Shown here: in pieces, positions 1,529 through 20,640 of the stretch
How positions within the stretch are numbered: position 1 is the first letter of the stretch
Layout: each line of letters starts with the position of its first letter
NCBI GenBank assembly: GCA_017446685.1
Contig: JAFSQI010000029.1
Coordinates: 1-33,359, forward strand
DNA from: Butyrivibrio sp.
Lineage (GTDB): Bacteria; Bacillota; Clostridia; Lachnospirales; Lachnospiraceae
Reading direction: 5' to 3'
Length of the DNA: 33,359 bases
The notes under the pieces: generated by a model
What the model was told of the DNA's origin: nothing
Database searches by the model: none
The model's input: the letters and a program-made list of their open reading frames with translations, nothing else
Translations under genes and position numbers: made by a program

Positions 1529-2878
1529 TCACATAGTAGAAACGGTGGATTTGTAAAGCTTTTTAAAAAACAGCGTGGACAATACAAGTGAAACCATTTC
1601 TGCAATAGGAAAAGCAAACCAAACATTTGAAAGAACTCCAGTCTGCGCAAGCAAGTAGGCTGCAGGAATCAAAACAACAAGCTGTCTTCCAACTGAAATA
1701 ATAAGAGAATAAATACTCTTGGAAAATGCCTGGAAGATTGATCCCATAGCAATACAACATCCTGCTAATGGAAAAGATAATGAAATGATTCTAAGGGCAG
1801 GAGAACCAATTTTAATCATTTCATCTGAAGCATTAAAGAAACTAAGTAAAGTACCGGGTATGGTGATAAAGCAGATAGTTCCGGCAACCATAATTGTAAC
1901 GGCAAGAATCAGAGCGAACTGCAATGCTTCTTTAATTCTATCCTTTCTACGAGCGCCATAGTTGTAAGCAAGTACAGGAATCAAACCATTATTGAGTCCG
2001 AATACAGGCATAAAGAAAAAGCTTTGTAATTTGAAATAAACTCCAAATACAGCAGTAGCAGTAGAAGAAAAAGTACCCAAAATAAGGTTCATTAAATAAG
2101 TCATAATAGAGCCAATAGACATCATTAAAATAGATGGAATACCAACATAATAAATACTTTTAACAATATATGCATCGGGGTGAAGAACTCGTTTGATATC
2201 AAGTTTAATGTCAGTATTATATTTTAAATTACAAAATAATCCGATAAAAGAAGCAATTACCTGACCAAATATTGTTGCATAGGCAGCACCTGCAACCCCA
2301 AGCTCAGGAAAAGGTCCTATACCGAAGATTAGAAGAGGATCAAAAATAATATTGATAACAGCACCGGAAACCTGAGAAATCATGCTAAAAAAGGTTTTTC
2401 CGGTAGATTGTAAAAGTCGCTCAAATGTAATCTGAAAAAATACACCAAAAGAGAGGCAACAGATAATTGTAAGATAGCTGGAGCCAAGTGAAGTGATTTC
2501 AGAATTTGAAGTCTGAGTAGCTATAAAGCTCCCTGCAAAAAAAATACCAATAATCAGAAAAATTAAATAATTGAAAAAAGTAAGAAGAAGACCGGTATTT
2601 GCAGCACCATCAGAGGTTTCAAATTTCTTTTCACCAAGAGAACGCGATAATAGGGCATTAATACCTACACCAGTACCGGAACCAAGCGCTATCATCAAAT
2701 TCTGCATTGGAAATGCCAGAGTAACTGCAGTAAGAGCATTTTCACTTATTCTTGCAACAAATATGCTGTCAACTACATTATAAAGAGCCTGAACAAGCAT
2801 TGAAATCATCATTGGAAGTGACATTGTGATAATCAGTTGTTTTATAGGCATGACGCCCATTTTGTTTTCAGTATTCAT
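1529..2878 (-). CDS. MATE-family multidrug efflux transporter
   Basis: From the preferred start the product is about 449 residues, the normal MATE length. It is almost wholly hydrophobic with about 12 membrane segments. The opening region (LIITMSLPMMISMLVQALYNVVDSIFVA) is the typical first MatE helix, and the motif pattern recurs in the second half (IPSILMMSIGSIMTYLMN). MATE proteins export drugs, dyes or metabolites in exchange for Na+ or H+. An upstream ATG at 2893 exists, but only the ATG at 2878 has a well-spaced AAAGGGA ribosome site, so the shorter form is chosen. The gene follows a MerR-family regulator on the same strand by about 76 bases, the usual drug-sensing pump arrangement. The substrate cannot be read from sequence. 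No clear terminator was seen after it. Confidence 0.93.
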   Translation of the reverse strand: MNTENKMGVMPIKQLIITMSLPMMISMLVQALYNVVDSIFVARISENALTAVTLAFPMQNLMIALGSGTGVGINALLSRSLGEKKFETSDGAANTGLLLTFFNYLIFLIIGIFFAGSFIATQTSNSEITSLGSSYLTIICCLSFGVFFQITFERLLQSTGKTFFSMISQVSGAVINIIFDPLLIFGIGPFPELGVAGAAYATIFGQVIASFIGLFCNLKYNTDIKLDIKRVLHPDAYIVKSIYYVGIPSILMMSIGSIMTYLMNLILGTFSSTATAVFGVYFKLQSFFFMPVFGLNNGLIPVLAYNYGARRKDRIKEALQFALILAVTIMVAGTICFITIPGTLLSFFNASDEMIKIGSPALRIISLSFPLAGCCIAMGSIFQAFSKSIYSLIISVGRQLVVLIPAAYLLAQTGVLSNVWFAFPIAEMVSLVLSTLFFKKLYKSTVSTM

Positions 2879-2954
2879 AAAAATCCCTTTCATTGGTGAA
2901 AAATAGAGTCGAAAAAAAAGTATATCATGAAATATATATATTATCCAGTATCAA

Positions 2955-3806
2955 CTATTCAAGTGGCTCAACACAAATAATCATATATTTGGAGTAAGTG
3001 TGTTGCTCCTCTTTTCCGTACAAATTAATAAGGCTTATTACATATAAATCAGAACAGGCTTTTAGTCTGTTCTTTTTTATAAATGAAACAATTTTTTTGT
3101 AAAACTTATCAATATCAGTAGCTGAGCTGTCAACATAGCAGCAGATAGCAGTAATACCTGGGAGTTGGAAGGTGTCGACATTATCAGCAGGAAGAAGAGA
3201 GAGACTTACAATGCTGTTATAGACATAGTGTCTTTTTAGAAGATCATCATAGCTGATTGTTATACCTGTTGGAAAGGCAGAAAGACTTGCCTGCTCGCGG
3301 GATTTCGAAAGATGTATGGAAAGATCTTTGGCGATATCAGCAGTGTGATGGGCATGATCTTTATCTTTTATCATAGTCTGGGTGACACTTATAACCGGTA
3401 TCTGATCGATGAAAGGAACGCCCATTTTGTGCAGCTCAAATTTTCCCAAAAACCACATTCCCAGATGAAGAGCACTGATTTTCTTGTTGATAAGATATAG
3501 CTCTTGCTGCATTTCAAGAATTTTTGAATTGGCGAGTTTTTCTATGCTTTCCCTGGATGAATTATGAATAAGATCACTGATTTCTTTAATAGAGCAGCCA
3601 GCCTGTCTCATTGTGCTGATAAAGAAAAATGAACTTATCTGAGAGGCGGAATAGTAATGATAGCCATTATTAGGATCAATTCTTGGCGCAATAATGTTTT
3701 GCTCATAATAAAAACGAAGAGTATCCCTAGTGGTGCCACATAGTTTTGCAAACTGACTGACGGTGAGGGTATATTCTTTTTCCTGATTTCTAAAATCTTC
3801 TGACAT
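2955..3806 (-). CDS. MerR-family transcriptional regulator with ligand-sensing C-terminal domain
   Basis: The product is about 283 residues. Residues ~12-80 form a MerR winged helix: TLTVSQFAKLCGTTRDTLR, then YYEQNIIAP and NGYHYYS. A short coiled coil (~88-115) leads to a C-terminal half that resembles small-molecule-binding GyrI/BmrR-type domains. No conserved metal-binding cysteine pattern is seen, which argues for an organic ligand. The ATG at 3806 sits 11 nt after GAGG; a TTG at 3815 is only 2 nt from it and was rejected. The gene precedes the MATE pump on the same strand and is divergent from the fatty-acid operon. The intervening DNA carries a MerR-style promoter facing that operon. Whether it controls the pump, lipid synthesis or both is unresolved. 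Confidence 0.9.
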   Translation of the reverse strand: MSEDFRNQEKEYTLTVSQFAKLCGTTRDTLRFYYEQNIIAPRIDPNNGYHYYSASQISSFFFISTMRQAGCSIKEISDLIHNSSRESIEKLANSKILEMQQELYLINKKISALHLGMWFLGKFELHKMGVPFIDQIPVISVTQTMIKDKDHAHHTADIAKDLSIHLSKSREQASLSAFPTGITISYDDLLKRHYVYNSIVSLSLLPADNVDTFQLPGITAICCYVDSSATDIDKFYKKIVSFIKKNRLKACSDLYVISLINLYGKEEQHTYSKYMIICVEPLE

Positions 3807-3843
3807 TGTTTTCAAAACCTCTGAAATAGAATGAATTTATATA

Positions 3844-3934: not shown

Positions 3935-4162
3935 ATGAAGGACATTAAAGGAACAATTGTAAGAATAATTGCAGAATATCTTGATAAGGAAGAGTCTGAA
4001 ATTTCATCAGCCAGTACATTTACAGAAATAGGACTTGATTCTTTGGATATTATGGAGCTTGTAATGCAGATGCAGGAAGAGCTTGATTGCAAGATTGAAC
4101 TTTCTCAGGAAATTACAACAATAGATAAGCTTGTAGAGCATATTCAGCAGAGCAACAGCTAA
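3935..4162 (+). CDS. acpP: Acyl carrier protein
   Basis: The product is 75 residues, acidic and helical, with the invariant phosphopantetheine site GLDSLD; Ser36 is the attachment residue. ACP carries the growing acyl chain between the enzymes encoded downstream. AAAGGAG lies about 9 nt before the ATG. It is the first gene of the fatty-acid operon and is followed after 38 bases by fabK. The SxFxEIGLDSLDIMELVMQMQEE context matches primary-metabolism ACPs rather than carriers of peptide synthetases. No ACP synthase is in the window. Confidence 0.96.
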   Translation: MKDIKGTIVRIIAEYLDKEESEISSASTFTEIGLDSLDIMELVMQMQEELDCKIELSQEITTIDKLVEHIQQSNS

Positions 4163-4200
4163 TATCCTTGCTTTAAGCATAAAACGGTGGAGGAGATAAG

Positions 4201-5136
4201 ATGAGTAATAACGTAATATGCGAAATGCTGGGAATACGTTATCCGGTCTTTCAGGGAGGAATGGCCTGGATTGCAGATGCTGAACTGGCAGCTGCTGTCT
4301 CTAATGCAGGAGGACTTGGACTTATTGCTGCGATGAATTCAAATGGCGAGCAATTAAGAGAACAGATAAAAAAGGCAAAAGAACTTACAGATAAACCGTT
4401 TGGAGTAAATCTTATGCTTATGAGCCCCTACATTGAAGAAGCAGTACAGGTTGTATGTGAGGAAAAAATAGCAATAGTTACAACAGGAGCCGGCAATCCG
4501 GCACGATTCATGGAACAGCTCAAGCAGGCAAATGTCAAGGTAATATGCGTGGTTGCAAGTGTTGCACTTGCCATTATGGTTGAAAGAATGGGAGCAAGCG
4601 CTGTAATCGCGGAAGGATGTGAATCAGGGGGGCATGTAGGCGATACAACAACTATGGCACTGGTGCCTCAGGTCGTTGATGCTGTAAAAATTCCTGTAAT
4701 TGCTGCAGGTGGTATAGCTGACGGAAGAGGAATGGCTGCTGCTTATATGCTTGGTGCAAAGGCAGTGCAGATGGGAACAAGATTCCTTACAGCCAAAGAA
4801 TGCAATGTACATGAGAACTACAAAAAGAAGGTTTTGGCAGCTAAAGACCGTGACACTATTGTTACCGGAAAAAGTCTTGGTCATCCCGTAAGAGCTCTTA
4901 AAAACCGTATGACAAGGGAATTTCAGGAAAAAGAAGCTTCACCTTTAACAACTCCTGAAGAACTTGAAAAAATGGGGGCAGGAGCTTTAAGAAAAGCGGC
5001 AATTGAGGGAGATGTGAAATACGGTTCATGTATGTGTGGGCAGATTGCCGGTCTTGTTAATAGTGAAAACACATGCAAAGAAATAATTGAAGGAATCTGT
5101 AGAGATGCTGAAAAAATCATGACTTCTTGCGGGTAA
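4201..5136 (+). CDS. fabK: Enoyl-ACP reductase II (FMN-dependent)
   Basis: The product is 311 residues, normal for FabK. It begins with the nitronate monooxygenase-like TIM-barrel signature (GIRYPVFQGGMAWIAD, then NAGGLGLIA), and has the flavin phosphate-binding loops IAAGGIADGRGMAAA and GAKAVQMGTRFL. ESGGHVGD places His145 where FabK has its catalytic histidine. It reduces trans-2-enoyl-ACP with NAD(P)H, the last step of each elongation cycle. FabK replaces FabI in many Firmicutes and is insensitive to triclosan. Position between acpP and fabD supports FabK over other nitronate monooxygenase relatives. Its stop codon lies inside the first of four hairpins. Confidence 0.95.
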   Translation: MSNNVICEMLGIRYPVFQGGMAWIADAELAAAVSNAGGLGLIAAMNSNGEQLREQIKKAKELTDKPFGVNLMLMSPYIEEAVQVVCEEKIAIVTTGAGNPARFMEQLKQANVKVICVVASVALAIMVERMGASAVIAEGCESGGHVGDTTTMALVPQVVDAVKIPVIAAGGIADGRGMAAAYMLGAKAVQMGTRFLTAKECNVHENYKKKVLAAKDRDTIVTGKSLGHPVRALKNRMTREFQEKEASPLTTPEELEKMGAGALRKAAIEGDVKYGSCMCGQIAGLVNSENTCKEIIEGICRDAEKIMTSCG

Positions 5137-5233
5137 AGGAGAAACTTGCCCGCAAGAATCTGGCTTCGCCAGATACGCTTTTATCTATAGATAAAAGCTA
5201 GTCCAGTACGGTTTTAAAGAAAACTGATTTTTT
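5124..5233 (+). other. Four consecutive stem-loops filling the fabK-fabD gap
   Basis: Hairpin 1 has arms 5124-5136 and 5146-5158 (13 bp, one wobble) and contains the fabK stop codon. Hairpin 2 spans 5158-5174 (7 bp, TTC loop). Hairpin 3 is a perfect 22-base palindrome at 5177-5198. Hairpin 4 pairs 5209-5215 with 5220-5226 (one wobble) and is followed by TTTTTT at 5228-5233, the form of a weak intrinsic terminator. The fabD ribosome site follows directly. This could be a partial terminator, an RNA processing site or a stabiliser that sets different levels of upstream and downstream genes. Confidence 0.7.
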
Positions 5234-5255
5234 AGAAATTATTGAGGAGAGAGGA

Positions 5256-6191
5256 ATGGGAAAAATCGCTTTTTTGTTTGATGGACAAGGGAGTCAGTAT
5301 CCCGGAATGGGAAAAGAGCTTTTTGAGTCTGTTGATAATATACATAATTTCTACGGAGTGGCAGAGGCTATAAGACCGGGGACACTTGGACAGATGTTTG
5401 CCGGAACGGAAGATGAATTAAAGCAGACTGATAATGCTCAGCCCTGCCTCTTTCTTGCAGATCTTGCAGGGGCAATGGCACTTGAAAAAAATGGAATAAA
5501 ACCTGATGCGGTTGCAGGTTTTTCTCTTGGAGAGACTGTGGCGTTAACAGTTGCAGGTGTTCTTGAAAAAGAACAGGCGTTTAAGCTTGTATGCAAGCGC
5601 GGAGAGCTGATGCAGAATGCTGCAAAAAAGCATGCCGGAAAAATGCTTGCAGTTCTAAAAACGAACCCTGAAGAATTAAAAAAATATTGCGATGAAACTG
5701 AAGTTTACCCGGTTAATTACAACTGTCCCGGACAGATAGTAGTTTCCGGTGAAGAAGAGAATATAAACAAGCTAAAAGATCTTTTGACAGAAAAGAAAAT
5801 CAGATTTATGGAGCTTGCAGTAGGTGGGCCTTTTCATACGCCATATATGAAAGAGGCATCAGCAGAACTAAAAAAGGAGCTACAATTAAATAAGCTATAT
5901 AACATAAATAAAACATATATACCGTTATATTCAAATAAAACCGCAAAACCCTATTCTGAAGACGTAGAAGAGATGATTGATGTCTTTTCTGAGCAGATTT
6001 CAAACAGCGTCAGATGGGAAGAAACCCTGCTTAACATGGCAAAAGACGGAGTGGATACATTTATAGAATGCGGCCCCGGTAAGACTTTAGCAGGATTTGT
6101 AAAACGAACTGTCGAAGGCGCGAAAATTTACAATGTAAGTGATAACAAATCATTACAGAAAGCTATTGAGGAACTGAAAAAAGATGCTTAA
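5256..6191 (+). CDS. fabD: Malonyl-CoA:ACP transacylase
   Basis: The product is 311 residues, typical for FabD. It has the opening GQGSQ (residues 10-14), the nucleophile elbow GFSLGE with Ser90, and GPFHTPYM with His194 completing the catalytic pair. It transfers malonyl from CoA to ACP, feeding every elongation round. A GAGGAGAGAGG ribosome site precedes the ATG after the hairpin cluster. The gene overlaps the start of fabG by 8 bases, so translation of the two is probably coupled. Confidence 0.96.
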   Translation: MGKIAFLFDGQGSQYPGMGKELFESVDNIHNFYGVAEAIRPGTLGQMFAGTEDELKQTDNAQPCLFLADLAGAMALEKNGIKPDAVAGFSLGETVALTVAGVLEKEQAFKLVCKRGELMQNAAKKHAGKMLAVLKTNPEELKKYCDETEVYPVNYNCPGQIVVSGEEENINKLKDLLTEKKIRFMELAVGGPFHTPYMKEASAELKKELQLNKLYNINKTYIPLYSNKTAKPYSEDVEEMIDVFSEQISNSVRWEETLLNMAKDGVDTFIECGPGKTLAGFVKRTVEGAKIYNVSDNKSLQKAIEELKKDA

Positions 6192-6924
6192 CGGAAAAAA
6201 TGCTGTGATCACGGGGGGAACAAGGGGAATCGGCAAGGCTATTGCACTGGAATTTGCCGAAAATGGAGCAAATCTTGCGATAATTGCGACAAAAGACAAC
6301 GAAAATGCAAAAAATACAATTAAAGAACTTGAGAGCATTGGAGTTAAAGCAGAGTTATTTGTATGTAATATAAGAAATTCGCAGGATGTTGAAAAAACAA
6401 GCGAAGAAATTTTAAAAGAATTCGGGAAAATCGATATTCTTGTTAATAATACAGGGGTAACAAAAGATAATCTTTTACCAAACCTTAGCGTTAGTGACAT
6501 AGATGATGTCATAGACATAAATCTTAAGGGCTGTATGTTGATGACAAGGGCTTTTGTGAGAAACTTCGTCAGAAACAGGAGTGGAAATATTATAAATATA
6601 AGTTCAGTTGTGGGGCTTATGGGGAATAAGGGACAAACAAATTATGCAGCATCCAAGGCAGGAGTTGTAGGCTTTACCAAGGCAGTTGCAAAAGAATACG
6701 GAAGAAAAAATATTAGATGTAATGCCATTGCACCGGGGTATATTGCTACAGAGATGACGGATGCACTTACTAACGAGCAAAAAGAGGAAATACAAAAGCA
6801 AATTCCTCTTTGCAAATTAGGAAGTGCTGAGGATGTAGCAAAGCTTGCAGCTTTTTTGGCTGATGATGCATCAAGATATATAACCGGCGAGGTAATCAAG
6901 GTTGATGGAGGAATGTATGTGTAG
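6184..6924 (+). CDS. fabG: 3-oxoacyl-ACP reductase
   Basis: The product is 246 residues, a classical short-chain dehydrogenase. The NADPH-binding TGGTRGIGKA is at residues 10-19, and the catalytic set is Ser140/141, Tyr154 and Lys158 (YAASK). The usual NNAG motif reads NNTG here (88-91), a mild change. It reduces 3-oxoacyl-ACP to 3-hydroxyacyl-ACP. It overlaps fabD by 8 bases and fabF by 8 bases, placing it inside a translationally coupled block. The operon context separates it from the many similar sugar and steroid dehydrogenases. Confidence 0.96.
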   Translation: MLNGKNAVITGGTRGIGKAIALEFAENGANLAIIATKDNENAKNTIKELESIGVKAELFVCNIRNSQDVEKTSEEILKEFGKIDILVNNTGVTKDNLLPNLSVSDIDDVIDINLKGCMLMTRAFVRNFVRNRSGNIINISSVVGLMGNKGQTNYAASKAGVVGFTKAVAKEYGRKNIRCNAIAPGYIATEMTDALTNEQKEEIQKQIPLCKLGSAEDVAKLAAFLADDASRYITGEVIKVDGGMYV

Positions 6925-8149
6925 GGTAGTTGTAACCGGAATGGGAGTTATTTCTCCCGTTGGAAATGATGTTGAAACATTTTGGGGAAATCTGAAAGAT
7001 GGAGTATGCGGAGTAGATAAAATAAACCGTTTTGATGCATCAAATCTGAAAGTAAGTCTGGATGCTGAAGTCAAAGATTTTGAACCCAAAAAATATTATG
7101 ATACCGTTCAGGAAATCAGAAAATCAGATCTTTATATGCAATACGCAATGGCGGCTTCAAAGCAGGCTGTTGAACAGAGCAAAATTCTTGAATCAGACAT
7201 TGATAAAGAGCGACTTGGAGTTTATATCGGTTCTGGAATAGGCGGAATTAATTCCACAATAAAAGAGACAAAAAAGCTTATTGATAAAGGACCGGAAATG
7301 GTTTCACCTTTTTTTGTTCCAATGATGATAAGTAATATGGCTGCCGGAGCAGTTTCGATAAAGTTCGGAGCCAAAGGGCCAACGCTTCCTGTTGTAACAG
7401 CTTGTGCGACATCAACTCATACTTTGGGAGAAGCGTACAGAGCGATTAAACATGGATATGCAGACGCAATAATAGCCGGTGGAAGCGAGGCATCTATAAA
7501 TGAGCTTGCAATGGCTGGTTTTATCAATTGCCAGGCGCTAAATTTATCAGAAAATCCAGAAGAGGGAAGCCTTCCTTTTGATAAAAGAAGAGGAGGCTTT
7601 GTTATGGGAGAAGGCGCAGGAATACTTATTCTTGAAGAATATGAGCATGCAAAAAAACGTGGCGCAACAATATATGCAGAAGTTGTAGGCTACGGTAATA
7701 CAGCGGATGCGTACCATATTACTGCGCCCGATCCGGAGGGAAGCGGAGCAATAAGAGCAATTAAAGCTGCTGTCAAAGAAGCGGGAATAAATCAGGATGA
7801 TGAGATTTATATTAATGCTCACGGGACAGGCACACATCTCAACGACGCTATGGAGACAAAGGCAATAAAGGCTGTTTTTGGTGAAAAAGCATATGATTTG
7901 CATGTAAGTTCAACAAAGTCGATGACAGGCCATATGATGGGGGCTACAGGAGCAGTTGAAGCTATTGCATCGGTGCTGGCGCTTAAGGATGGAACAATTC
8001 CGCCAACAATCAATTACAAAGTACCTGATGAAGAATGTGATCTTAATTACACAGCAAATAAATCAGTAAAAGCAGATATTAAATATGCGCTTAGTACTTC
8101 ACTTGGATTTGGCGGACACAATGCCTGCATAGCATTTAAGCGTGTTTGA
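6917..8149 (+). CDS. fabF: 3-oxoacyl-ACP synthase II
   Basis: From the ATG at 6917 the product is 410 residues and begins MCRVVVTGMGVISPVGND, the normal FabF N-terminus. GGAGG at 6907-6911 lies 5 nt before this ATG, so an in-frame TTG at 6902 was rejected. The catalytic Cys-His-His triad is present: Cys163 (TACATSTHT), His302 (NAHGTGT) and His339 (TGHMMGATG). It condenses malonyl-ACP with the growing acyl-ACP. As the only ketosynthase in the window it must do the elongation; FabH-type initiation is not encoded here. Confidence 0.96.
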   Translation: MCRVVVTGMGVISPVGNDVETFWGNLKDGVCGVDKINRFDASNLKVSLDAEVKDFEPKKYYDTVQEIRKSDLYMQYAMAASKQAVEQSKILESDIDKERLGVYIGSGIGGINSTIKETKKLIDKGPEMVSPFFVPMMISNMAAGAVSIKFGAKGPTLPVVTACATSTHTLGEAYRAIKHGYADAIIAGGSEASINELAMAGFINCQALNLSENPEEGSLPFDKRRGGFVMGEGAGILILEEYEHAKKRGATIYAEVVGYGNTADAYHITAPDPEGSGAIRAIKAAVKEAGINQDDEIYINAHGTGTHLNDAMETKAIKAVFGEKAYDLHVSSTKSMTGHMMGATGAVEAIASVLALKDGTIPPTINYKVPDEECDLNYTANKSVKADIKYALSTSLGFGGHNACIAFKRV

Positions 8150-8181
8150 GAAGTTGCTAAAGAGTAGCCGAAATTAGTCTT

Positions 8182-8214
8182 TATTATGTCAGGATTTTTA
8201 CGCCTGACATAATA
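8182..8214 (+). other. Perfect 12-bp stem-loop directly upstream of the accB ribosome site
   Basis: Arms TATTATGTCAGG (8182-8193) and CCTGACATAATA (8203-8214) pair perfectly around a 9-nt loop. The accB site AGGAAGGAAG begins at the foot of the stem. There is no T tract after it, so RNA stabilisation, processing or translational gating is more likely than termination. Confidence 0.65.
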
Positions 8215-8226
8215 GGAAGGAAGAAG

Positions 8227-8676
8227 ATGAATTCTTTAGAGGAGTATGGAAATCTTTTTCAGAAGCTTGGTCTTACTGAACTGGTTGTTGAGGAAAATGA
8301 TTTCAAATTAAAGTTAAAAAAAGAAATTCCCGTAACTTACCTTAGTTCTAACACAGTCGCCCCCACAGTAAGTACACAGAATGTGGTGCAGGATAACAAT
8401 ATACAGAGTTCTACTGACTTTCAGAAGCAAGCAGAAGAAAAAACTGAGGGTAAAGAAATCAAAGCACCTCTTCTTGGAATCTTTTATGGAAAAATCGCAG
8501 ACAAGGAGTCTTTGAAAGAAGGAGATGCTGTAAAAGAAGGAGATATTCTTTGCACAATCGAAGCAATGAAGATGATGAATGAAGTAAGATCTCCGATTGA
8601 TGGAATTGTAAAAAAAGTCCTGGCTTCAGAAGGTGATCTTGTGGAATATAATCAGGTTCTTTTTGTAATTGGTTGA
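8227..8676 (+). CDS. accB: Biotin carboxyl carrier protein of acetyl-CoA carboxylase
   Basis: The product is 149 residues. The C-terminal biotinyl domain (~78-149) carries EAMKMMNEV, with Lys115 as the biotin site, and the flanking PLLGIFY and GDILCTIEAMK strands. Residues ~40-75 are a flexible linker rich in T, S, Q and N. The N-terminal segment is short and typical of bacterial AccB. Biotin on this protein is carboxylated by AccC, and the carboxyl is moved to acetyl-CoA by AccAD. The gene follows fabF by 77 bases that hold a hairpin. Its stop codon lies inside the first degenerate unit of the tandem array. Confidence 0.95.
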   Translation: MNSLEEYGNLFQKLGLTELVVEENDFKLKLKKEIPVTYLSSNTVAPTVSTQNVVQDNNIQSSTDFQKQAEEKTEGKEIKAPLLGIFYGKIADKESLKEGDAVKEGDILCTIEAMKMMNEVRSPIDGIVKKVLASEGDLVEYNQVLFVIG

Positions 8677-8994
8677 GATAAAAAAGAAGTTAAAGTGACT
8701 AAAAAGGGAAGACAAAGTAGCTAAAAAGGGAATGGATGGTGTACAAAAAGGGAACCTAAGGTAGTGAAAAAGGGAACAGAAGGTGTACAAAAGGGGAATT
8801 AAGAGAAGATAAATAGGGATCCACCCTAAAATGACTCAAAAGTGTACAAAAAGGGAATAAAAAATAACGAAAAAAGGGTGAAAGGTGCAGTAAAAGGGAA
8901 TTAAGGGTTACTAAAAAGGGAACGTATAGTGCATGAAAAGGGAATGCGAAGTGTACAAAAAGGGAACTTAAGGTGACGAAAAAGGGAATGAAAA
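8673..8994 (+). repeat. Direct tandem array of ~15 degenerate 22-bp units filling the accB-fabZ gap
   Basis: The consensus unit is GTGnnnAAAAAGGGAA plus six variable bases. Clear units start at 8695, 8717, 8739, 8761, 8783, 8842, 8885, 8907, 8929, 8951 and 8973. Degenerate ones start at 8673 (over the accB stop), 8805, 8827 (only 15 bp left) and 8864 (21 bp). The most repeated hexamer is GTGTAC, in four units. All units have one orientation and the 22-bp register is kept nearly throughout. The last unit ends at the base before the fabZ ATG, so that ATG occupies the position of the next unit's GTG. Each unit thus resembles a ribosome site, spacer and start codon. Reading from the GTGs gives very short ORFs beginning Met-(Tyr/Thr)-Lys-Lys-Gly. 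The function is unknown. Confidence 0.9.
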
Positions 8995-9429
8995 ATGAAT
9001 CGTGAAGAGATAAAAAATATACTGCCACACAGAGAGCCAATGCTGCTTGTGGATGAGGTTTATTTAAATGAAGATGGCAGTGCAACAGGATTTTACACTG
9101 TAAGAGGAGATGAATTTTTCTTGCAGGGACATTTTCCGGGAAATCCTATTGTTCCCGGAGTAATTCAGTGCGAAATGATGGCGCAGTCAGCGTGCATAAT
9201 GTTTCAGGATAAAATGAAACAGGAAGGCTGTATTCCGGTATATACGGGGCTGGACAAGGTAAAATTCAGAAATATGGTAAAACCGGGAGACAAAGTTCAA
9301 ATTGATACGAAACTGCAAAGAGCCATGCACCCGATGTACATGCTTCATGGAGAGTTAAGTGTTGACGGAAAGAGGTGTATGAGTGGCGATTTTTCCTTTG
9401 TGATCACATCAGAAAGCGAGAAAAAATAA
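8995..9429 (+). CDS. fabZ: 3-hydroxyacyl-ACP dehydratase
   Basis: The product is 144 residues with the hot-dog fold signature GHFPGNPIVPGVIQCEMMAQ. His46 and Glu60 are the catalytic pair. The start MNREEIKNILPHREPMLLVD matches the family. It removes water from 3-hydroxyacyl-ACP to give the enoyl-ACP used by FabK. Its ribosome site, AAGGGAA, belongs to the last unit of the 22-bp tandem array, so its translation may depend on that array. A mini-ORF starting at GTG 8973 runs 11 bases into the gene before stopping at 9003-9005. fabZ is followed with no gap by accC. Confidence 0.96.
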   Translation: MNREEIKNILPHREPMLLVDEVYLNEDGSATGFYTVRGDEFFLQGHFPGNPIVPGVIQCEMMAQSACIMFQDKMKQEGCIPVYTGLDKVKFRNMVKPGDKVQIDTKLQRAMHPMYMLHGELSVDGKRCMSGDFSFVITSESEKK

Positions 9430-10758
9430 ATGTTTTCAAAGATACTTATTGCAAACAGAGGTGAAGTTGCAGTCCGTGTAATCAGGGCGTGCAAGGAGAT
9501 GGGAATAAAAACAGTTGCTATTTATTCAGAGGCGGACAGGGCAGCTCTTCATGTGGAAATGGCAGATGAGAGTTATTGCATAGGAGGCCCTCTTGTCAAG
9601 GACAGCTATCTTAATATGGATGTGATAGTGACACTTGCCAAACGAGTAGGAGCAGAGGCTATCCATCCGGGATACGGGATGCTTTCTGAAAACTGTGAAT
9701 TTGCAAAACTATGTGAGGAAAATGAAATAGTTCTCATTAGTCCCGGGGCTGAAGTAATGAGTAAAATGGGGCAAAAGGAAGTTGCAAGAAAAATAGCTGT
9801 TTCTGCCGGTGTTCCAGTTACTCCGGGAAGCCCTATCCTTGAAAGCGTAGAAGATGTAAAAAGATGGGCTGAAAAAATAGGATATCCGGTGATACTGAAA
9901 GCGAGAGCCGGAGGCGGAGGAAAGGGAATTCGAATTGTCAGAGAAGAAAAGCAACTTTTAAGCTCTTTTGATCAGGTAAAAAAAGAAGCTGCGAGCTCTT
10001 TTGCTGATGATGGGATATTTATGGAAAAATATCTTGAAAACGTAAAACACGTTGAAGTGCAGATAATTGCAGATTCATTTGGAAAAGTGCTGGTTCTTGG
10101 TGATAGAGACTGTTCAGTTCAGCGAAAGAATCAGAAGCTTATTGAAGAATGTCCCGCTCCGGTATTACCGGACGAAATGCGCAAAAAAATGCATCTGGCA
10201 GCAACTGAACTTGCAAAAGCAGTGGGATACGTAACTGTTGGAACAGTAGAATTTCTGGCACATAAGGACGAATTTTTTTTCATGGAAATGAATACAAGAC
10301 TGCAGGTTGAACATTCCGTTACGGAGATGGTATGCGGAATAGATATTGTCGAGTGGCAGATAAGAACAGCGGCAGGAGTTGCACTTCCTTTTAAGCAGGA
10401 AGAAATTGCACATTCAAGGCATGCCATTGAATGCAGGATATGTGCAGAAAATGCAAGGAATTTTGCGCCTTCTACAGGGAAAGTTGAGCTATTACACATT
10501 CCAGGAGGCGTTGACGTAAGATTTGACTCAGCACTTTACCAGAGCTATGAAGTAACTCCGTTCTATGATTCGATGCTTGGGAAACTCATTGTTTGTTCTG
10601 ATACAAGAGATGGGGCAATCAGAAAAATGAAAAGTGCATTGTCGGAGTTTGTGCTTGTCGGAGTTGATAACAACAGAGATATGCATATGAAGTTTATGGA
10701 TAATATGAAGTTTGTGCTTGGAAATTATGATACAGGCATTTGTCGGAAGGTTTTGTAA
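9430..10758 (+). CDS. accC: Biotin carboxylase subunit of acetyl-CoA carboxylase
   Basis: The product is 442 residues, typical for AccC. In order it has the N-terminal biotin-carboxylase domain (FSKILIANRGEVAVRVIRAC), the ATP-grasp domain with the glycine loop GGGGKG at 161-166, RDCSVQRKNQK near 230, and EMNTRLQVEHSVTE near 285. The C-terminal domain ends in GVDNNRDMHMKFM. It carboxylates the biotin on AccB using ATP and bicarbonate. The ATG touches the fabZ stop codon, so translation is likely coupled. It is short for pyruvate or propionyl carboxylases, which supports the AccC call. Confidence 0.96.
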   Translation: MFSKILIANRGEVAVRVIRACKEMGIKTVAIYSEADRAALHVEMADESYCIGGPLVKDSYLNMDVIVTLAKRVGAEAIHPGYGMLSENCEFAKLCEENEIVLISPGAEVMSKMGQKEVARKIAVSAGVPVTPGSPILESVEDVKRWAEKIGYPVILKARAGGGGKGIRIVREEKQLLSSFDQVKKEAASSFADDGIFMEKYLENVKHVEVQIIADSFGKVLVLGDRDCSVQRKNQKLIEECPAPVLPDEMRKKMHLAATELAKAVGYVTVGTVEFLAHKDEFFFMEMNTRLQVEHSVTEMVCGIDIVEWQIRTAAGVALPFKQEEIAHSRHAIECRICAENARNFAPSTGKVELLHIPGGVDVRFDSALYQSYEVTPFYDSMLGKLIVCSDTRDGAIRKMKSALSEFVLVGVDNNRDMHMKFMDNMKFVLGNYDTGICRKVL

Positions 10759-10761
10759 ATT

Positions 10762-11625
10762 ATGAAATTAAGCGATTTATTTATAAAAGCGAATAATGAG
10801 CTTGAAAAAGACGGATTGAGACCACGAAGCAGAAAGATAACCTGTAAAAAATGTCAAAATCTGGTATCGGTGTCAAAAATCAGGAAAAATAACTTTATTT
10901 GTCCGGAGTGCGGATATTATTTTTCGGTCAGGGCAAGAAGAAGAATCTTGATGCTCACTGATAAAAGGAGCTTTGTCGAAATTGATGCCGAAATGGAGTC
11001 CAGAAATATTCTTGATTTTCCGGGATATGAAGAAAAAATATCTGCCGCTATTGAAAAAAGCAGGGAAAAAGAGGGAGTTATCTGCGGGACAGCAACCATT
11101 GATGGGAGAAAAATTTGTATTTTTTCGATGGACTCTAATTTTATGATGGGGTCAATGGGTGCAGTTGTAGGGGAGAAAATAACCAGACTTTTTGAGTATG
11201 CGACACACAACAGTCTTCCTGTACTTGGAGTAACTGTTTCGGGCGGAGCAAGGATGCAGGAGGGCATGATATCGCTTATGCAGATGTCCAAAGTATCTGC
11301 AGCGGTAAAAAGACATAGTAACAAAGGAAACCTGTATATAGTTCTTTTGACAAATCCCACTACAGGAGGCGTGGACGCAAGTTTTGCCATGCTTGGGGAT
11401 ATTACGCTGGCAGAGCCTGGGGCAAGAGTTGGTTTTGCAGGACCCAGAGTAATAGAAAAAACTCTTAATCAGAAATTGCCTGAAGACTTTCAGAGAGCAG
11501 AAAAAGTCCTCGAATGTGGATTTATTGACTCAATTGTACCAAGAGACGAGCAAAAAGATTTTATTAGCAAAATTCTGGAGCTTCATACTTTTGGAAATGC
11601 AGGAAGAGAGGTTTTCAATGGATGA
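10762..11625 (+). CDS. accD: Acetyl-CoA carboxylase carboxyltransferase subunit beta
   Basis: The product is 287 residues. It opens with a four-cysteine zinc ribbon (Cys28, Cys31, Cys47, Cys50), as in bacterial AccD. The carboxyltransferase core includes VSGGARMQEGMISLMQM and TNPTTGGVDASFAMLGD, which build the oxyanion and CoA sites. With AccA it moves the carboxyl from biotin to acetyl-CoA. It starts 3 bases after accC and overlaps accA by 8 bases, ensuring near-equal subunit synthesis. Confidence 0.96.
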   Translation: MKLSDLFIKANNELEKDGLRPRSRKITCKKCQNLVSVSKIRKNNFICPECGYYFSVRARRRILMLTDKRSFVEIDAEMESRNILDFPGYEEKISAAIEKSREKEGVICGTATIDGRKICIFSMDSNFMMGSMGAVVGEKITRLFEYATHNSLPVLGVTVSGGARMQEGMISLMQMSKVSAAVKRHSNKGNLYIVLLTNPTTGGVDASFAMLGDITLAEPGARVGFAGPRVIEKTLNQKLPEDFQRAEKVLECGFIDSIVPRDEQKDFISKILELHTFGNAGREVFNG

Positions 11626-12373
11626 TTATGAGATAGTTCTTGGTGCCAGAGGTGAAAACAGGCTCACAGCTTTAAATTTTATAGATCTTGTTGTTACCGA
11701 TTTCATTGAGCTTCACGGAGACAGACTTTACGGCGATGACAAGGCTATAGTTGGCGGTATCGGAAAGGTTGGAAATATGCCTGTTACCGTCATAGGTGTA
11801 GAAAAAGGGAAGAGTCTGGAGCAGAGAATAGAGCACAATTTTGGAAGCGCGCAACCGGAAGGCTACAGAAAGGCGCTGCGACTTATGAAGCAGGCTGAAA
11901 AGTTTCACAGACCGATTTTGATCTTTGTCGATACTGCCGGAGCTTTTTGCGGAATTGATGCTGAAGAGCACGGGCAGGGCAGAGCAATTGCGGATAATCT
12001 TTTTGAAATGTCAGATCTTAAAACACCAATTTTATCCATTGTAATTGGAGAAGGCGGAAGTGGTGGAGCACTTGCTCTTAGTCACAGCGACAGGATTTGG
12101 ATGATGGAAGATGCGTATTTTAGCGTGGTTTCTCCGGAAAGTTGTGCCAATATTTTATGGAAGACAACAGACAGAGCTTATGAAGCTGCAAATGCACTCT
12201 CGCTTACTGCGCCCAAATTGTATCAGCTTGGGATAATAGACAGAATCTGCAGGCAGGATAGTGTGGTAAATCTTCCCGAAGAGATTTTTGCAGAACTTGA
12301 AGAACTAAGAAAAAAGCCAGTGTCAATGCTTGTGGAAGAAAGATATATGAAATTCAGGAAAATAGGGTATTGA
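11618..12373 (+). CDS. accA: Acetyl-CoA carboxylase carboxyltransferase subunit alpha
   Basis: From the ATG at 11618 the product is 251 residues, starting MDDYEIVLGARGENRLTALN. An AGGAAGAGAGG ribosome site inside the end of accD sits just before it; longer in-frame extensions upstream lie within accD and are not supported. The carboxyltransferase signature appears as FVDTAGAFCGIDAEEHGQG and IGEGGSGGALAL. It is shorter at the N-terminus than Proteobacterial AccA (over 300 residues) but normal for the compact Firmicute form. It pairs with AccD in the carboxyltransferase complex. Confidence 0.95.
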   Translation: MDDYEIVLGARGENRLTALNFIDLVVTDFIELHGDRLYGDDKAIVGGIGKVGNMPVTVIGVEKGKSLEQRIEHNFGSAQPEGYRKALRLMKQAEKFHRPILIFVDTAGAFCGIDAEEHGQGRAIADNLFEMSDLKTPILSIVIGEGGSGGALALSHSDRIWMMEDAYFSVVSPESCANILWKTTDRAYEAANALSLTAPKLYQLGIIDRICRQDSVVNLPEEIFAELEELRKKPVSMLVEERYMKFRKIGY

Positions 12374-14691: not shown

Positions 14692-14785
14692 ACCTAAATG
14701 GAAACTTCATAAGGAAAAGATGAGGTGACCTGTATATATGTTAGAGGATGTCAGAGTGTATCTGACAAGCATTAAGGAGATAATT

Positions 14786-17563
14786 ATGGGGAAAATTTGG
14801 AACATTGAAGAATTTAAGAGGACTGCAAGAGCTGCAGCAGCAGAGGGTATTGTTTTACTGGAAAACAATGATAATGCTCTTCCGCTTAATAAGGGTACGA
14901 AAGTGGCAGTTTTTGGCAGAAGCCAGATGAACTATTATAAGAGCGGTACCGGTTCAGGCGGAATGGTTAATGTTGACTATGTGGTAGGAATATATGAAGC
15001 CATTGAAGCATGCAAGGAACTTACAGTTAACAAGGAAGTCAGAAAGGCTTACGAGGAATTTGTAAAGGAAAATCCTTTCGATACAGGTGCCGGATGGGCA
15101 TCAGAGCCATGGTTTCAGAAGGAAATGCCTCTTACGGATGAACTGGTAAAAAAGGCTGCGAAGGACTCGGATGCAGCTATTTTCATTATCGGAAGAACAG
15201 CCGGTGAGGATCAGGACAATAAGAACGAGCAGGGCAGTTATCTTTTGACAGATGAAGAAAAGGATTCTCTTAAGAAGGTGTGTGAGTTCTTTAAGCGCAC
15301 TATAGTTCTTTTAAATGTCGGCAATATAATCGATATGAAATGGGTAAAAGAGATTGGACCTTCAGCCGTTTTGTACGTTTGGCAGGGAGGGCAGGAAGGC
15401 GGAAACGCAGTTCTTGATGTAATTACTGGCGTTGTCAATCCGTCAGGAAAGCTGACAGATACTATAGCTGCAAATATTGAAGATTATTCTTCAACAGATA
15501 ACTTTGGCTCTGAAGAGCAGAATATCCAGTCGGAGGATATCTATATTGGATATCGCTATTTTGAGACCTTCGACAAAGATAGCGTTTTATATCCTTTCGG
15601 ATTTGGACTTTCATATACAGATTTTACTATAGAAAGCAGTTCTTTTGCCTATGATTCAGAAACCGGAGTAAGGCTTGAAGCGAAGGTCACAAATACTGGT
15701 TCAGTACCGGGAAAAGAGGCTGTTCAGGTATATGTACAGGCGCCTCAGGGAATTTTGGGTAAACCTGACAGAGTTCTTTGCGCCTTTGGAAAAACTGACC
15801 TACTGGAACCGGGAAAAAGTCAGGTAATTAAATTTACAATCCCGAAATACTGGATTTCATCCTACGATGACGGCGGAGTTACCGGATATAAGTCCGCATA
15901 TGTGTGTGAAGAAGGAGAGTATGTATTCTTTGTTGGAAGTGATGTCAGAAGCGCTTCTGAGGCAGGAAAATTTACTCTTAATGAAACTGAACTGATTGAA
16001 CAGTGCGAGGAAGCATATGCACCTGTTCAGGAGTTTGACAGACTTGTTCCCGGATACAATAACGGAAGTTATATAAAAGTTTACGAGGATGTGCCTACAA
16101 GGACGCTTGATCCAAATAAGAAGAGACAAAAGAATCTTCCGAAGGTAAAGAAATACACCGGCGATAAGGGATTTAAGTTAAAGGATGTTGAGGATAAAAA
16201 GATTTCTTTGGAGGACTTTATTGCTCAGCTATCTGATAAAGATCTGATTACAATGACAAGAGGCGAGGGAATGTGCTCACCAAAGGTTACTGCCGGTATA
16301 GCTGGAGCATTTGGTGGCGTGACAGACAGTCTTAAGGAATTTGGAATTCCTGTAGGCGGATGCGCTGACGGACCAAGCGGAATTCGTATGGACTGCGGAA
16401 CACATGCATTTTCTCTTCCAAACGGAACCTGCCTTGCCTGCACCTTTAATGAAGAGATAAATGAGCAGCTCTTTAAATGGGAGGCCCTTGATCTTAGAAG
16501 ATACAGAATTGATGCACTTTTAGGACCGGGAATGAACATTCACAGAAGCCCACTTAACGGAAGAAACTTTGAGTATTTTTCTGAGGATCCTTTCCTTACA
16601 GGTAAGCTTGTAGCAGCGCAGCTTAAAGGTCTTCATAAATATGATGTTACAGGTGTTATTAAACACTTTGCCGGAAATACTCAGGAATTCAATAGAAATA
16701 CTGTTAATAATGTGATGTCTGAAAGGGCACTCAGGGAGATTTACTTAAAGGCATTTGAGATTGCTGTTAGAGAAGGCAATGCAAGGGCAATAATGAGTAC
16801 TTATGGCCCTGTAAATGGCATCTGGACTGCCAGCAGCTATGACCTTTTAACTACAATCCTTAGAGGAGAGTGGGGATTTGAAGGTATAGTAATGACAGAC
16901 TGGTGGGCTATGGGCAATGACGAAGCAGGCGCACCGGGAGATTATGCTAATGTTGCAGCTCAGGTAAGGGCTCAGAATGATCTTAACATGGTCAACAGTA
17001 GCTCGGAGAACAACTCTAATGAAGATAACCTTGAAAATGCGCTCAAGGAGGGAACTCTTACCAGAGCTGAGCTTGCAAGGAATGCAGCTAATATCCTTAC
17101 ATTCCTTCTTAAAACACCGGTTTACAGACATATGCTTGGTGAGGAATCAGAACTTGATAAAGAGCTAAAGGATGCTGTATCAGCTGAGGATGCCAAGCTT
17201 CAGGATATGATCAAGGTCAAGATGAATAATGATGTCACTGAGCTTGATGTAAAGAAAATTGTGGTTGAAAAAGGTGAAAATACAACATTTGTGCTTTCAG
17301 CTCCGGGAAAGTGCGAGATGGAGCTTGAAGTTGTGGTACGAGCTGATAATCAGCCGGATGTTGCACAGCTTTCGATGTCTGTTTTCCAGGACAAGGCACT
17401 TTTAAAAACTGTTACATTAACCGGAATGGACAAGGAGTGGCAGACACTGAAAATAGATCTTTTCCCGTCATTTATCGGAAATTTCTATTTGAAGTTTTAT
17501 TTTGCCCAGGGAGGACTTGAATTTAAGTCTGCTAAAGTAATAGTAACAGAACACATACAATAA
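14786..17563 (+). CDS. Glycoside hydrolase family 3 beta-glucosidase with reversed domain order, intracellular
   Basis: The product is about 925 residues from the ATG at 14786, which has an AAGGAG site; an upstream ATG at 14738 is in frame but less well placed. In the order seen, residues ~10-275 are the GH3 C-terminal alpha/beta sandwich (EGIVLLENNDNALPL, KVAVFGRS), ~290-360 a fibronectin-III-like domain, and ~475-780 the TIM barrel normally found first. The barrel has GPGMNIHRSPLNGRNFEYFSE cut short here as GPGMNIHRS then NFEYFSEDP, the KHFAGN motif, and VMTDWW with nucleophile Asp705. A beta-rich, possibly sugar-binding domain fills ~810-925. No signal peptide is present, so it would act on imported cello-oligosaccharides. 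Such permuted GH3 enzymes are known from rumen Butyrivibrio and Ruminococcus. Confidence 0.93.
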   Translation: MGKIWNIEEFKRTARAAAAEGIVLLENNDNALPLNKGTKVAVFGRSQMNYYKSGTGSGGMVNVDYVVGIYEAIEACKELTVNKEVRKAYEEFVKENPFDTGAGWASEPWFQKEMPLTDELVKKAAKDSDAAIFIIGRTAGEDQDNKNEQGSYLLTDEEKDSLKKVCEFFKRTIVLLNVGNIIDMKWVKEIGPSAVLYVWQGGQEGGNAVLDVITGVVNPSGKLTDTIAANIEDYSSTDNFGSEEQNIQSEDIYIGYRYFETFDKDSVLYPFGFGLSYTDFTIESSSFAYDSETGVRLEAKVTNTGSVPGKEAVQVYVQAPQGILGKPDRVLCAFGKTDLLEPGKSQVIKFTIPKYWISSYDDGGVTGYKSAYVCEEGEYVFFVGSDVRSASEAGKFTLNETELIEQCEEAYAPVQEFDRLVPGYNNGSYIKVYEDVPTRTLDPNKKRQKNLPKVKKYTGDKGFKLKDVEDKKISLEDFIAQLSDKDLITMTRGEGMCSPKVTAGIAGAFGGVTDSLKEFGIPVGGCADGPSGIRMDCGTHAFSLPNGTCLACTFNEEINEQLFKWEALDLRRYRIDALLGPGMNIHRSPLNGRNFEYFSEDPFLTGKLVAAQLKGLHKYDVTGVIKHFAGNTQEFNRNTVNNVMSERALREIYLKAFEIAVREGNARAIMSTYGPVNGIWTASSYDLLTTILRGEWGFEGIVMTDWWAMGNDEAGAPGDYANVAAQVRAQNDLNMVNSSSENNSNEDNLENALKEGTLTRAELARNAANILTFLLKTPVYRHMLGEESELDKELKDAVSAEDAKLQDMIKVKMNNDVTELDVKKIVVEKGENTTFVLSAPGKCEMELEVVVRADNQPDVAQLSMSVFQDKALLKTVTLTGMDKEWQTLKIDLFPSFIGNFYLKFYFAQGGLEFKSAKVIVTEHIQ

Positions 17564-18791: not shown

Positions 18792-18851
18792 AAGCGGTGC
18801 AATGGGGCATCATGCTACGTATCAGCGTAGCGTGCCATTGCGCCGCTTTTT
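18792..18851 (+). terminator. Second terminator / attenuator immediately before the amt ribosome site
   Basis: Outer arms 18792-18805 and 18835-18848 pair over 14 bp (one wobble), and an inner stem GCTACG/CGTAGC (18814-18819, 18826-18831) holds a 6-nt TATCAG loop. TTTTT follows, then the GAGGAGAAAG site of amt. A terminator within the 5' leader of a nitrogen gene points to conditional antitermination. Confidence 0.75.
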
Positions 18852-18870
18852 GTTGCAGAGGAGAAAGTAT

Positions 18871-20640
18871 ATGAGTGAAGAAATCTTAAGTGCTATAGAC
18901 AGTAGCGTATTTGGTGTTTGGTTTCTGATTGGCGCAGCTTTGGTGTTCTGGATGCAGGCAGGTTTTGCAATGTGTGAGGCAGGCTTTACCAGGGCCAAGA
19001 ATACAGGAAATATCATAATGAAAAATCTTATGGATTTCTGTATTGGTACAGTTGTTTTCATTCTGATTGGTTTTGGTCTGTTTCTTGGCGAAGATATGAT
19101 GGGAATCATCGGAAAGCCGGGATTTGACATTTTTACAGATTATGCCAATTTTGACTGGTCAAATTTTGTTTTTAACCTTGTGTTCTGTGCTACAACAGCA
19201 ACTATTGTTTCAGGTTCTATGGCAGAGAGAACCAGGTTTTTATCCTATTGCGTGTACTCGGCAGTTATTTCAGCAATTATTTATCCTGTAGAAGCTCATT
19301 GGACCTGGGGCGGTGGCTGGCTTTCACAGATAGGCTTTCATGATTTTGCAGGTTCTAACTGCATTCACATGGTAGGTGGTATTTCAGCTCTTATTGGTGC
19401 AGCATTCCTTGGAGCAAGAATCGGTAAGTTTGAAAGAGACAAGGATGGAAAGGTTACAAAAGTAAACGCATTTCCCGGACATAACCTTGTGGCAGCTTCT
19501 CTTGGTGTATTCATTCTGTGGCTTGGCTGGTACGGATTTAACGGAGCAGCTTGTACTTCAGTTGAACAGCTTGGCTCAGTATTTGTAACTACAACAATTG
19601 CACCTGCACTTGCAACAGTGACATGTATGATTTTCACATGGATCAAATATGGAAAACCTGATGTTTCAATGTGCCTAAACGCTTCACTTGCAGGGCTTGT
19701 TGCTATTACAGCCCCATGTGATGTAACAGATGCCTTCGGAGCAATTGTTATCGGTATTGTAGCAGGACTTCTTGTATGTTTTGGTGTATGGCTTTTGGAT
19801 TACAAGCTTCATATTGACGATCCTGTAGGGGCAGTTGCAGTTCATTGTCTTAACGGTATCTGGGGAACACTTGCAGTAGGTCTTTTTGCTACAAATTCAG
19901 CTCCCGGTTATTCAATTGCAGATGCAGCAGGAAATGAGATGACAGGACTTTTCTATGGAGGAGGACTTAAACTTCTTGGAATCCAGCTTGTAGGAATGGG
20001 GGCAACAGCTGCCTGGACAGCACTTGCTATTACAATTACATTCCTTGGAATAAAGGCAATCTTTGGACTTAGAGTTTCAGAAGAAGAGGAAATTCTTGGA
20101 CTTGACTCAACAGAACATGGTCTTGCATCAGCTTATTCAGGCTTTGCTATCATGGATGTTTCCAACACACTTAACATGTCAGTAAATGAAAATACCGACC
20201 TTGGAGTAAGCGATTACGAAGAGGCTTCTGAAATACAAAAGAGGGCTTCAGTGCCTGTTGTATCGGCTCCTGTACATACAGAGTCAGGTATTCATAAAGT
20301 TGTTATTATCGCAAAGTTGTCCCGCTACGACAAGCTTAGAAGAGCTATGAACGAGCTTGGAGTAACCGGAATGACAGTTACTCAAGTCATGGGTTGTGGC
20401 GTCCAGAAAGGTTCCGGCGAGATGTATCGTGGAGTTGAGATGGATGCCACTCTCCTTCCTAAAATTAAGCTGGAAGTTGTTGTCAGCAAGATTCCGGTTG
20501 AAGATGTTATAGAAGCAGCAAAGAGAACTCTTTATACAGGCCACATCGGAGATGGAAAGATTTTCGTATACAGTCTTGATAACGTGGTTAAGATCAGAAC
20601 CGGTGAAGAAGGCGCTGCAGCACTTGCTGACGTTGAATAG
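18871..20640 (+). CDS. amt: Ammonium channel Amt fused to a C-terminal PII (GlnK-like) domain
   Basis: From the ATG at 18871 (GAGGAGAAAG site) the product is 589 residues. Residues ~10-425 are an Amt/Rh channel with about 11 membrane helices and the twin pore histidines His166 (CIHMVGG) and His325 (VAVHCLNGIWG). After a ~45-residue linker, ~474-583 is a full PII domain: GMTVTQVMGCGVQKGSGEMYRG, then LLPKIKLEVVV and TGHIGDGKIFVY, ending in the KIRTGEEG signature. PII normally blocks Amt as a separate trimer set by ATP/ADP and 2-oxoglutarate; here it is tethered. The T-loop keeps the Tyr46 equivalent (Tyr519) but has Met524 where Tyr51 is uridylylated in E. coli. An in-frame start at 18802 would translate the terminator hairpin and was rejected. 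It heads the nitrogen cluster. Confidence 0.93.
   Translation: MSEEILSAIDSSVFGVWFLIGAALVFWMQAGFAMCEAGFTRAKNTGNIIMKNLMDFCIGTVVFILIGFGLFLGEDMMGIIGKPGFDIFTDYANFDWSNFVFNLVFCATTATIVSGSMAERTRFLSYCVYSAVISAIIYPVEAHWTWGGGWLSQIGFHDFAGSNCIHMVGGISALIGAAFLGARIGKFERDKDGKVTKVNAFPGHNLVAASLGVFILWLGWYGFNGAACTSVEQLGSVFVTTTIAPALATVTCMIFTWIKYGKPDVSMCLNASLAGLVAITAPCDVTDAFGAIVIGIVAGLLVCFGVWLLDYKLHIDDPVGAVAVHCLNGIWGTLAVGLFATNSAPGYSIADAAGNEMTGLFYGGGLKLLGIQLVGMGATAAWTALAITITFLGIKAIFGLRVSEEEEILGLDSTEHGLASAYSGFAIMDVSNTLNMSVNENTDLGVSDYEEASEIQKRASVPVVSAPVHTESGIHKVVIIAKLSRYDKLRRAMNELGVTGMTVTQVMGCGVQKGSGEMYRGVEMDATLLPKIKLEVVVSKIPVEDVIEAAKRTLYTGHIGDGKIFVYSLDNVVKIRTGEEGAAALADVE

Follow-up and report, generated by a model that had tools for sequence, protein, structure and literature searches.

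A candidate off-origin array of Rep_3-type iterons between accB and fabZ in a Butyrivibrio fatty-acid operon

Results

Gene content of the window and layout of the repeat array

The window, that is, the whole stretch of DNA analyzed here, is the entire contig C114 (33,359 bases) of a Butyrivibrio MAG that is 88.75% complete and consists of 137 contigs, and its best-matching related loci belong to Butyrivibrio and other Lachnospiraceae. MatE and MerR genes on the minus strand (1529..3815; Pfam) are followed on the plus strand by the series acpP-fabK-fabD-fabG-fabF-accB-fabZ-accC-accD-accA (3935..12373; NCBIfam matches), an AMP-binding ligase gene and others. The array lies within this series, between accB, coding for the biotin carboxyl carrier protein (8227..8676, plus strand; TIGR00531, E 6.3e-26, a match under the curated cut-off of the model), and fabZ (8995..9429, plus strand; NF000582, E 5.8e-35). 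Farther along the window we also observed a GH3 protein whose C-terminal domain precedes the N-terminal domain (14738-17563) and an ammonium transporter fused to a P-II regulator domain (18802-20640), the latter adjoined by genes for asparagine synthase, type III glutamine synthetase and glutamate synthase.

Using a matrix derived from 26 regions upstream of rep genes in other genomes (see below), we found 11 units of at least 8 bits on the plus strand of the accB-fabZ gap, starting at 8690, 8712, 8734, 8756, 8778, 8837, 8880, 8902, 8924, 8946 and 8968 and scoring 11.1 to 28.6 bits. Together they make up the candidate off-origin iteron array (8690..8989), with an approximate consensus AAR-GTG-nnn-AAAAAGGGAA-Y. 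Tandem Repeats Finder reported period-22/44 rows within 8701-8819 and 8913-8988, and the array announced by the original prediction, which had been made from the sequence alone, is indeed found at this place. Furthermore, a search of the window for GTGnnnAAAAAGGGAA at up to three mismatches gave 38 matches where 21.8 ± 4.4 would be expected, and 11 of the 38 fall at 8695-8988 on the plus strand, each with no or one mismatch.

Eight of the ten steps between units are exactly 22 bp, and the remaining two, of 59 and 43 bp, are found in mid-array (8800..8880, plus strand), where degenerate slots at 8800 (-3.2 bits with the rep-upstream matrix), about 8826 (-8.1) and about 8859 (-5.1) flank the good unit at 8837; the proposed 22-bp register therefore holds for most steps but is broken in the middle. 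Another degenerate slot (8668..8689, plus strand, -7.7 bits) lies in 22-bp register over the accB stop codon and is possibly a decayed iteron copy. The array had been described as about 15 copies beginning over this stop codon, a count and a starting point that are reached only if the four degenerate slots, all below 0 bits, are included, whereas the clear units number 11 and the first of them begins 13 bp past the accB stop. At the other end, the fabZ ATG (8995) occupies the position of the next expected GTG, as predicted, and the last iteron core, AAAAAGGGAA at 8979-8988 (plus strand), is at the fabZ Shine-Dalgarno position; because the iteron is purine-rich, the last unit may double as the fabZ Shine-Dalgarno. 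Column by column the core is nearly invariant and the flanks vary, in line with the earlier description, yet GTG is absent from 3 of the 11 units, and a base bias is seen at positions -3 to -1 and +16 as well.

The repeat unit resembles the iterons of a Rep_3 replicon

The exact word GTGNNNAAAAAGGGAA is present in 51 of 79 genomes of the genus. In five loci (G003, G008, G022, G028 and G068) a dense motif cluster lies directly upstream of a 388-aa gene (405 aa in G022 when counted from its first start codon). The DNA that contains the cluster has no ORF reaching 100 aa, and the units point to this gene, save one reverse copy in G008. The protein beside the G003 cluster contains Rep3_N (E 1.5e-19) and Rep3_C (E 4.7e-15), and a ParA gene is found on the far side of clusters of this type. 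The assignment as a Rep initiator rests on these Pfam domains and on a RepM match of 64 bits against an NCBIfam cut-off of 250 bits; a PDB sequence search with Rep gave no match at E 0.01. A motif cluster, a putative initiator gene of the Rep_3 family and ParA are the hallmarks of an iteron origin.

Near-full-length Rep, at 70-100% identity, is found in 26 of the 79 Butyrivibrio-group genomes, including B. proteoclasticus B316, and all 26 carry at least three exact motif copies, clustered upstream of rep. B316 has 36 matches with no or one mismatch genome-wide, 11 of them on a replicon of 302,358 bp, the size given for the chromid BPc2 in PMC2914790, and all 11 are within the last 860 bp of this replicon, right before rep at base 1. 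Among the other 53 genomes the highest exact count is that of the source MAG, with 7 copies (five in the array, one in accA and one on contig C77), followed by G016, G017 and G018 with 3 each; one copy viewed from G018 and the copies viewed from G014, G019 and G025 fall in one conserved, coding-looking stretch.

The 26 rep-upstream regions contain 272 forward and 2 reverse sites at no or one mismatch, which define the extended unit AAAG-GTG-[AT][CA][TC]-AAAAAGGGAA-T, and these regions (22 of 4 kb and 4 shorter), with the window excluded, were used to train the matrix. In the window it finds 12 sites of at least 8 bits, of which 11 are the units of the array and the twelfth, at 11791, falls within accA, against an average of 0.22 (maximum 2) in 50 base shuffles of the window and none in the reversed sequence; the training sites had been gathered with the core pattern of the original prediction, so that the match at those 13 positions is partly built in. 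Two unseeded checks gave the same picture. The most repeated 10-mers in five rep-upstream regions are fragments of the same motif. When only the nine columns not covered by the pattern are scored, the 11 units total 12.2 bits, although four of them are individually below 0; positions picked at random in the window gave -94 ± 19, with none of 20,000 reaching the total of the units, and letters drawn from the gap gave -75 ± 18, with none of 5,000 reaching it.

Rep_3 iterons are short direct repeats of the same orientation, about 17-22 bp apart, and of the same kind as the repeats adjoining rep; the 11 units are all on the plus strand and agree with the rep-adjoining repeats, unseeded columns included. 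From these sequence comparisons we consider it very probable that the units of the accB-fabZ array are Rep_3 iterons. Among the options in the original prediction, the protein-binding array with a period of about two helical turns would then be the right class, and since related replicons have the motif at their origins, it is not a meaningless repeat. A Rfam search of the window and the five rep loci gave nothing at the gathering score, and the exact two-unit pattern had no match in viral contigs.

Divergent Reps and the replication genes of the source MAG

No Rep of the chromid type was found in the 88.75%-complete source MAG, where the best Rep is 34% identical and has different repeats; DUF815 and LarC were not found in it, and its best ParA is also 34% identical. 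This second Rep_3 gene (C50:12477-13622, L247) is accompanied by its own AAGTRGTGTARAAAA repeats, some of them 22 bp apart, which suggests another replicon with a different iteron. On contig C77 (position 67553; L248 4549) the exact iteron word, scoring 24 bits with its flanks, is found outside ORFs of at least 100 aa and about 3 kb from a ParA-like gene.

In the other genomes, 18 of 21 regions with divergent Reps (34-63% identity) have no site of 14 bits; in the other three, such sites number 6 (pCY360), 2 (G054) and 1 (one of the pCY186 reps). On visual inspection, pCY360, pCY186 (C4:83), G007 C32 and G054 have repeats that resemble the chromid motif; no clear repeat was seen in four divergent regions (the second rep of pCY186, G012 C9, G013 C12 and G041). 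Related repeats are found beside some Reps of only 44-56% identity, and the motif is therefore not strictly diagnostic of one Rep.

Position of the fab locus relative to the chromid origin

In seven genomes (loci L192, L196/L207, L197/L208, L204, L206, L253 and L260) we found the order Rep - iterons - ParA - ParB-like - MatE - MerR - acpP-fab-acc, with MatE and MerR between the fab operon and ParA/origin; there, 10-12 kb separate the accB-fabZ junction from the closest iteron of the origin. The MatE - MerR - acpP...accA part of this order recurs in the window; to the left of MatE comes a response-regulator gene, after which the contig ends, without the origin segment. Between rep and ParA, three loci have long, very AT-rich DNA (about 2-5 kb) in which no ORF reaches 100 aa (L200 5619-10403, L194 12081-15527, L192 13710-15996).

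In a four-protein tree of 29 taxa (8 of 37 were dropped, L031 among them), the window is sister to L002, L006 and L010 with a support of 1.0, and the wider clade also includes L016 and L027; the chromid Rep is present in the genomes of L006, L010, L016 and L027. We infer that the window lies on a Rep-bearing chromid, a location that rests on synteny, the initiator being absent from the assembly. The simplest reading of this absence is that the origin segment was missed through failed assembly or binning, and loss is the alternative.

Among 80 other fabZ loci, none has more than one match (no or one mismatch) within 500 bp upstream of fabZ. The original prediction had named plain gap DNA in relatives as one of several conditions that together would speak against a functional role, and for the fabZ gap this one is what the 80 loci show. 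Its proposed search of related genomes with the motif had two outcomes: the motif was recovered, at rep origins, but no array was seen in the fabZ gap of relatives. The comparison of fabZ loci gives no sign of selection on the accB-fabZ array itself.

Off-origin sites elsewhere on Rep-bearing replicons

Over the 26 genomes, the rep-bearing contigs (3.09 Mb) carry 21 exact off-origin sites and all remaining contigs (94.7 Mb) carry 19, that is, 6.8 against 0.20 per Mb (about 30-fold), a plain ratio with no test attached, orthologous sites being counted per species and genome sizes rounded. Ten rep-bearing contigs (766,259 bases) contain 20 off-origin sites of at least 14 bits, plus the INlla18 site at 20002, and 18 of the 20 are oriented away from the origin, a bias that may be passive, the motif being purine-rich. 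A chromosome control of 364,871 bases had 2 sites of at least 14 bits, one stretch (L344) having a previously known exact match, and the enrichment claim relies on the whole-genome exact counts and not on this small control. BPc2 has no off-origin copy at no or one mismatch, and extra sites are therefore not required by every such chromid; X503 and the G012 contig have no off-origin site of 14 bits.

When 26 off-origin sites were viewed, 20 were in an ORF of at least 100 aa and 18 in clear genes, two sharing a doubtful 103-aa ORF upstream of acpP, and the genic sites were read in two frames, as VxKKG or GxxKG. The exact word also occurs in a 346-aa sugar-permease-like gene of three genomes, in the VxKKG frame, at L194 1207, L195 16277 and L254 4857. 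MC2021 and AE3009 have a pair of iterons spaced 22 bp directly upstream of acpP (L016 408-451; L027 298-341), and in each of them accA contains two further iterons and the AMP-ligase gene one, with another copy in accB in MC2021.

An iteron word within accA

The accA coding sequence of the window contains a single iteron (11791..11812, plus strand; 20.5 bits), translated as IGVEKGK. By motif search, the homologous position was located in 51 of the 80 loci, with Ile in 45 and Val in 6, the window being the seventh Val; the Ile loci score at most 10.5 bits and the six Val loci 20.8-29.7 bits. In a codon alignment of 33 sequences (7 Val and 26 Ile), the seven Val species have identical third positions at 28 of 251 accA codons, and the longest uninterrupted stretch of them coincides exactly with the six iteron codons, the next longest being 3; at that rate a run of six is expected, by our own arithmetic, about 5e-4 times per gene. 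This argues for an iteron word held at the DNA level, together with the Ile-to-Val change. Furthermore, the tree groups the Val species into a single clade (support 0.913), which points to a single event that was retained, and not to repeated gains.

Discussion

The explanation that we regard as probable is that the accB-fabZ gap carries off-origin iterons of a Rep_3 chromid that restrain initiation. Its basis in the sequence is the identity of the motif, the association with this replicon in relatives, the off-origin enrichment and the conservation in accA; the array itself is known from one MAG's assembly. Binding of Rep to iterons, titration and handcuffing are established for iteron replicons. 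The chromid Rep would bind the accB-fabZ array, and because the array would lie near the origin and be duplicated soon after initiation, it could soak up free Rep, pair with origin-bound Rep by handcuffing, or both, and re-initiation would thereby be restrained. As a side effect, array-bound Rep may impede transcription into fabZ-accCDA. For the main role of the array our analysis leans toward titration or handcuffing.

A neutral or selfish expansion, in which one iteron-like seed was amplified by slippage or by recombination with an origin array, and in which Rep may bind although the repeats have no selected role, seems to us unlikely, but it accounts for the absence of the array from 80 other fabZ loci, for a 44-bp higher-order period suggestive of recent duplications and for four degenerate slots that resemble decay; it does not sit well with core columns that are near-invariant between variable flanks, nor with the raised density of off-origin sites on these replicons and the conserved site in accA. 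That the array might be the chromid replication origin itself, relocated into the fab operon, is very improbable. Its 11 units would be a usual number for an origin array (8-17 per genome), and origin spacings no longer than 110 bp tend to be multiples of about 11 bp, with which 22 agrees (R 0.52, n=255, the related genomes not being independent). We rejected this origin because the array has no AT-rich unwinding element beside it (the highest AT content of any 100 bp in 8500-9100 is 70%, against maxima of 82-95% in the 26 rep-upstream regions), the window has no rep gene, and the spacing differs, steps being mostly of 22 bp where only 39 of 303 origin spacings are of 21-23 bp. DnaA boxes, searched as TTWTNCACA, are absent between 333 and 25989, and so within 8 kb of the array, a weak argument as 13 of the 26 rep-upstream regions also have none.

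The original prediction had seen in the units ribosome-site-like elements, which might form a ladder of translation starts or standby sites tuning fabZ, and the position of the last unit at the Shine-Dalgarno, the purine-rich repeats and a predicted RNA fold somewhat more stable than shuffles (z -1.82; 3 of 100 shuffles as stable) are in keeping with it. However, rep is preceded by the same motif where the DNA contains no ORF of 100 aa, sites within genes are read in two different frames, GTG is missing from 3 of the 11 units, and no plus-strand ORF of at least 60 aa starts within the array; these observations speak against a ribosome ladder, which we rejected and to which we give scarcely any chance. 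Control of the fab genes by Rep, with array-bound Rep repressing fabZ-accCDA or coupling its expression to chromid copy number, would suit an array that occupies a gap inside the operon and the iteron pair of MC2021 and AE3009 before acpP, the first gene of the series, and it has a precedent in RctB, which represses its own promoter via a bound site according to PMC6090056. We nevertheless think it improbable, given that 18 of the 26 viewed off-origin sites are in clear genes and not in promoters, and that INlla21 and X503, with fab and rep on the same contig, have no operon site of 14 bits. More speculatively, the chromid initiator might double as a regulator of membrane-lipid synthesis through Rep sites recruited into the fab-acc operon (the array ahead of fabZ in the window, the pairs ahead of acpP in MC2021 and AE3009, and the sites within accA, accB and the AMP-ligase gene), coupling chromid copy number to fatty-acid production under selection strong enough to alter AccA residues, an idea that we consider decidedly doubtful.

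Iteron arrays apart from an origin are known from the incA/incC-type control iterons of the P1 and F plasmids, which limit copy number and adjoin rep. The accB-fabZ array would likewise be an extra iteron array and not the origin, but whereas incA/incC lie beside rep, a distance of 10-12 kb separates the origin iterons from the accB-fabZ junction in the seven syntenic relatives. With the chromid-type origin arrays of Butyrivibrio it shares the motif, a consistent orientation and a similar copy number; in those arrays, however, the spacing is irregular, and rep and very AT-rich DNA lie next to them, while the fab array is mostly 22-bp periodic and has neither neighbour.

PMC3937223 and PMC6090056 describe sites outside the origin of V. 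cholerae chrII that bind RctB and inhibit chrII replication, and a cloned fragment that had no origin activity. On the reading proposed here, the array would resemble these sites in belonging to an iteron-type secondary chromosome, in lying outside but fairly near the origin and in a proposed titration. The RctB sites are 11/12-mers and 29/39-mers with demonstrated binding and inhibition, whereas the array is made of units of about 21-22 bp, of Rep_3 type, in a Firmicute and in dense tandem within an operon, with a predicted role. The E. coli datA locus is described in PMC3937223 as an off-origin cluster of DnaA sites near the origin that promotes DnaA-ATP hydrolysis. On this description the array would be similar to datA as an off-origin cluster of initiator sites close to the origin, and unlike it in that datA binds DnaA and acts through DnaA-ATP hydrolysis. 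We know of no nucleotide-hydrolysis chemistry of this kind for Rep_3 proteins.

BPc2 is presented in PMC2914790 as the first chromid identified in Firmicutes, a review (PMC6090056) places iteron chromids in beta- and gammaproteobacteria, and the origin of a B. fibrisolvens chromid was placed near repA by GC skew, as given in PMC6249431. In the literature searched, mostly without subscription papers, we found no description of Butyrivibrio iterons, which may have been described elsewhere.

Together, these results provide Butyrivibrio chromids with a specific candidate origin motif and a candidate initiator, and a site for this initiator is apparently held within an essential coding gene, accA. 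If the proposed explanation is true, these replicons would be a Gram-positive case of an iteron chromid, off-origin control of a second chromosome would be predicted outside Vibrio, and an essential metabolic operon would carry a hidden replication-control element.
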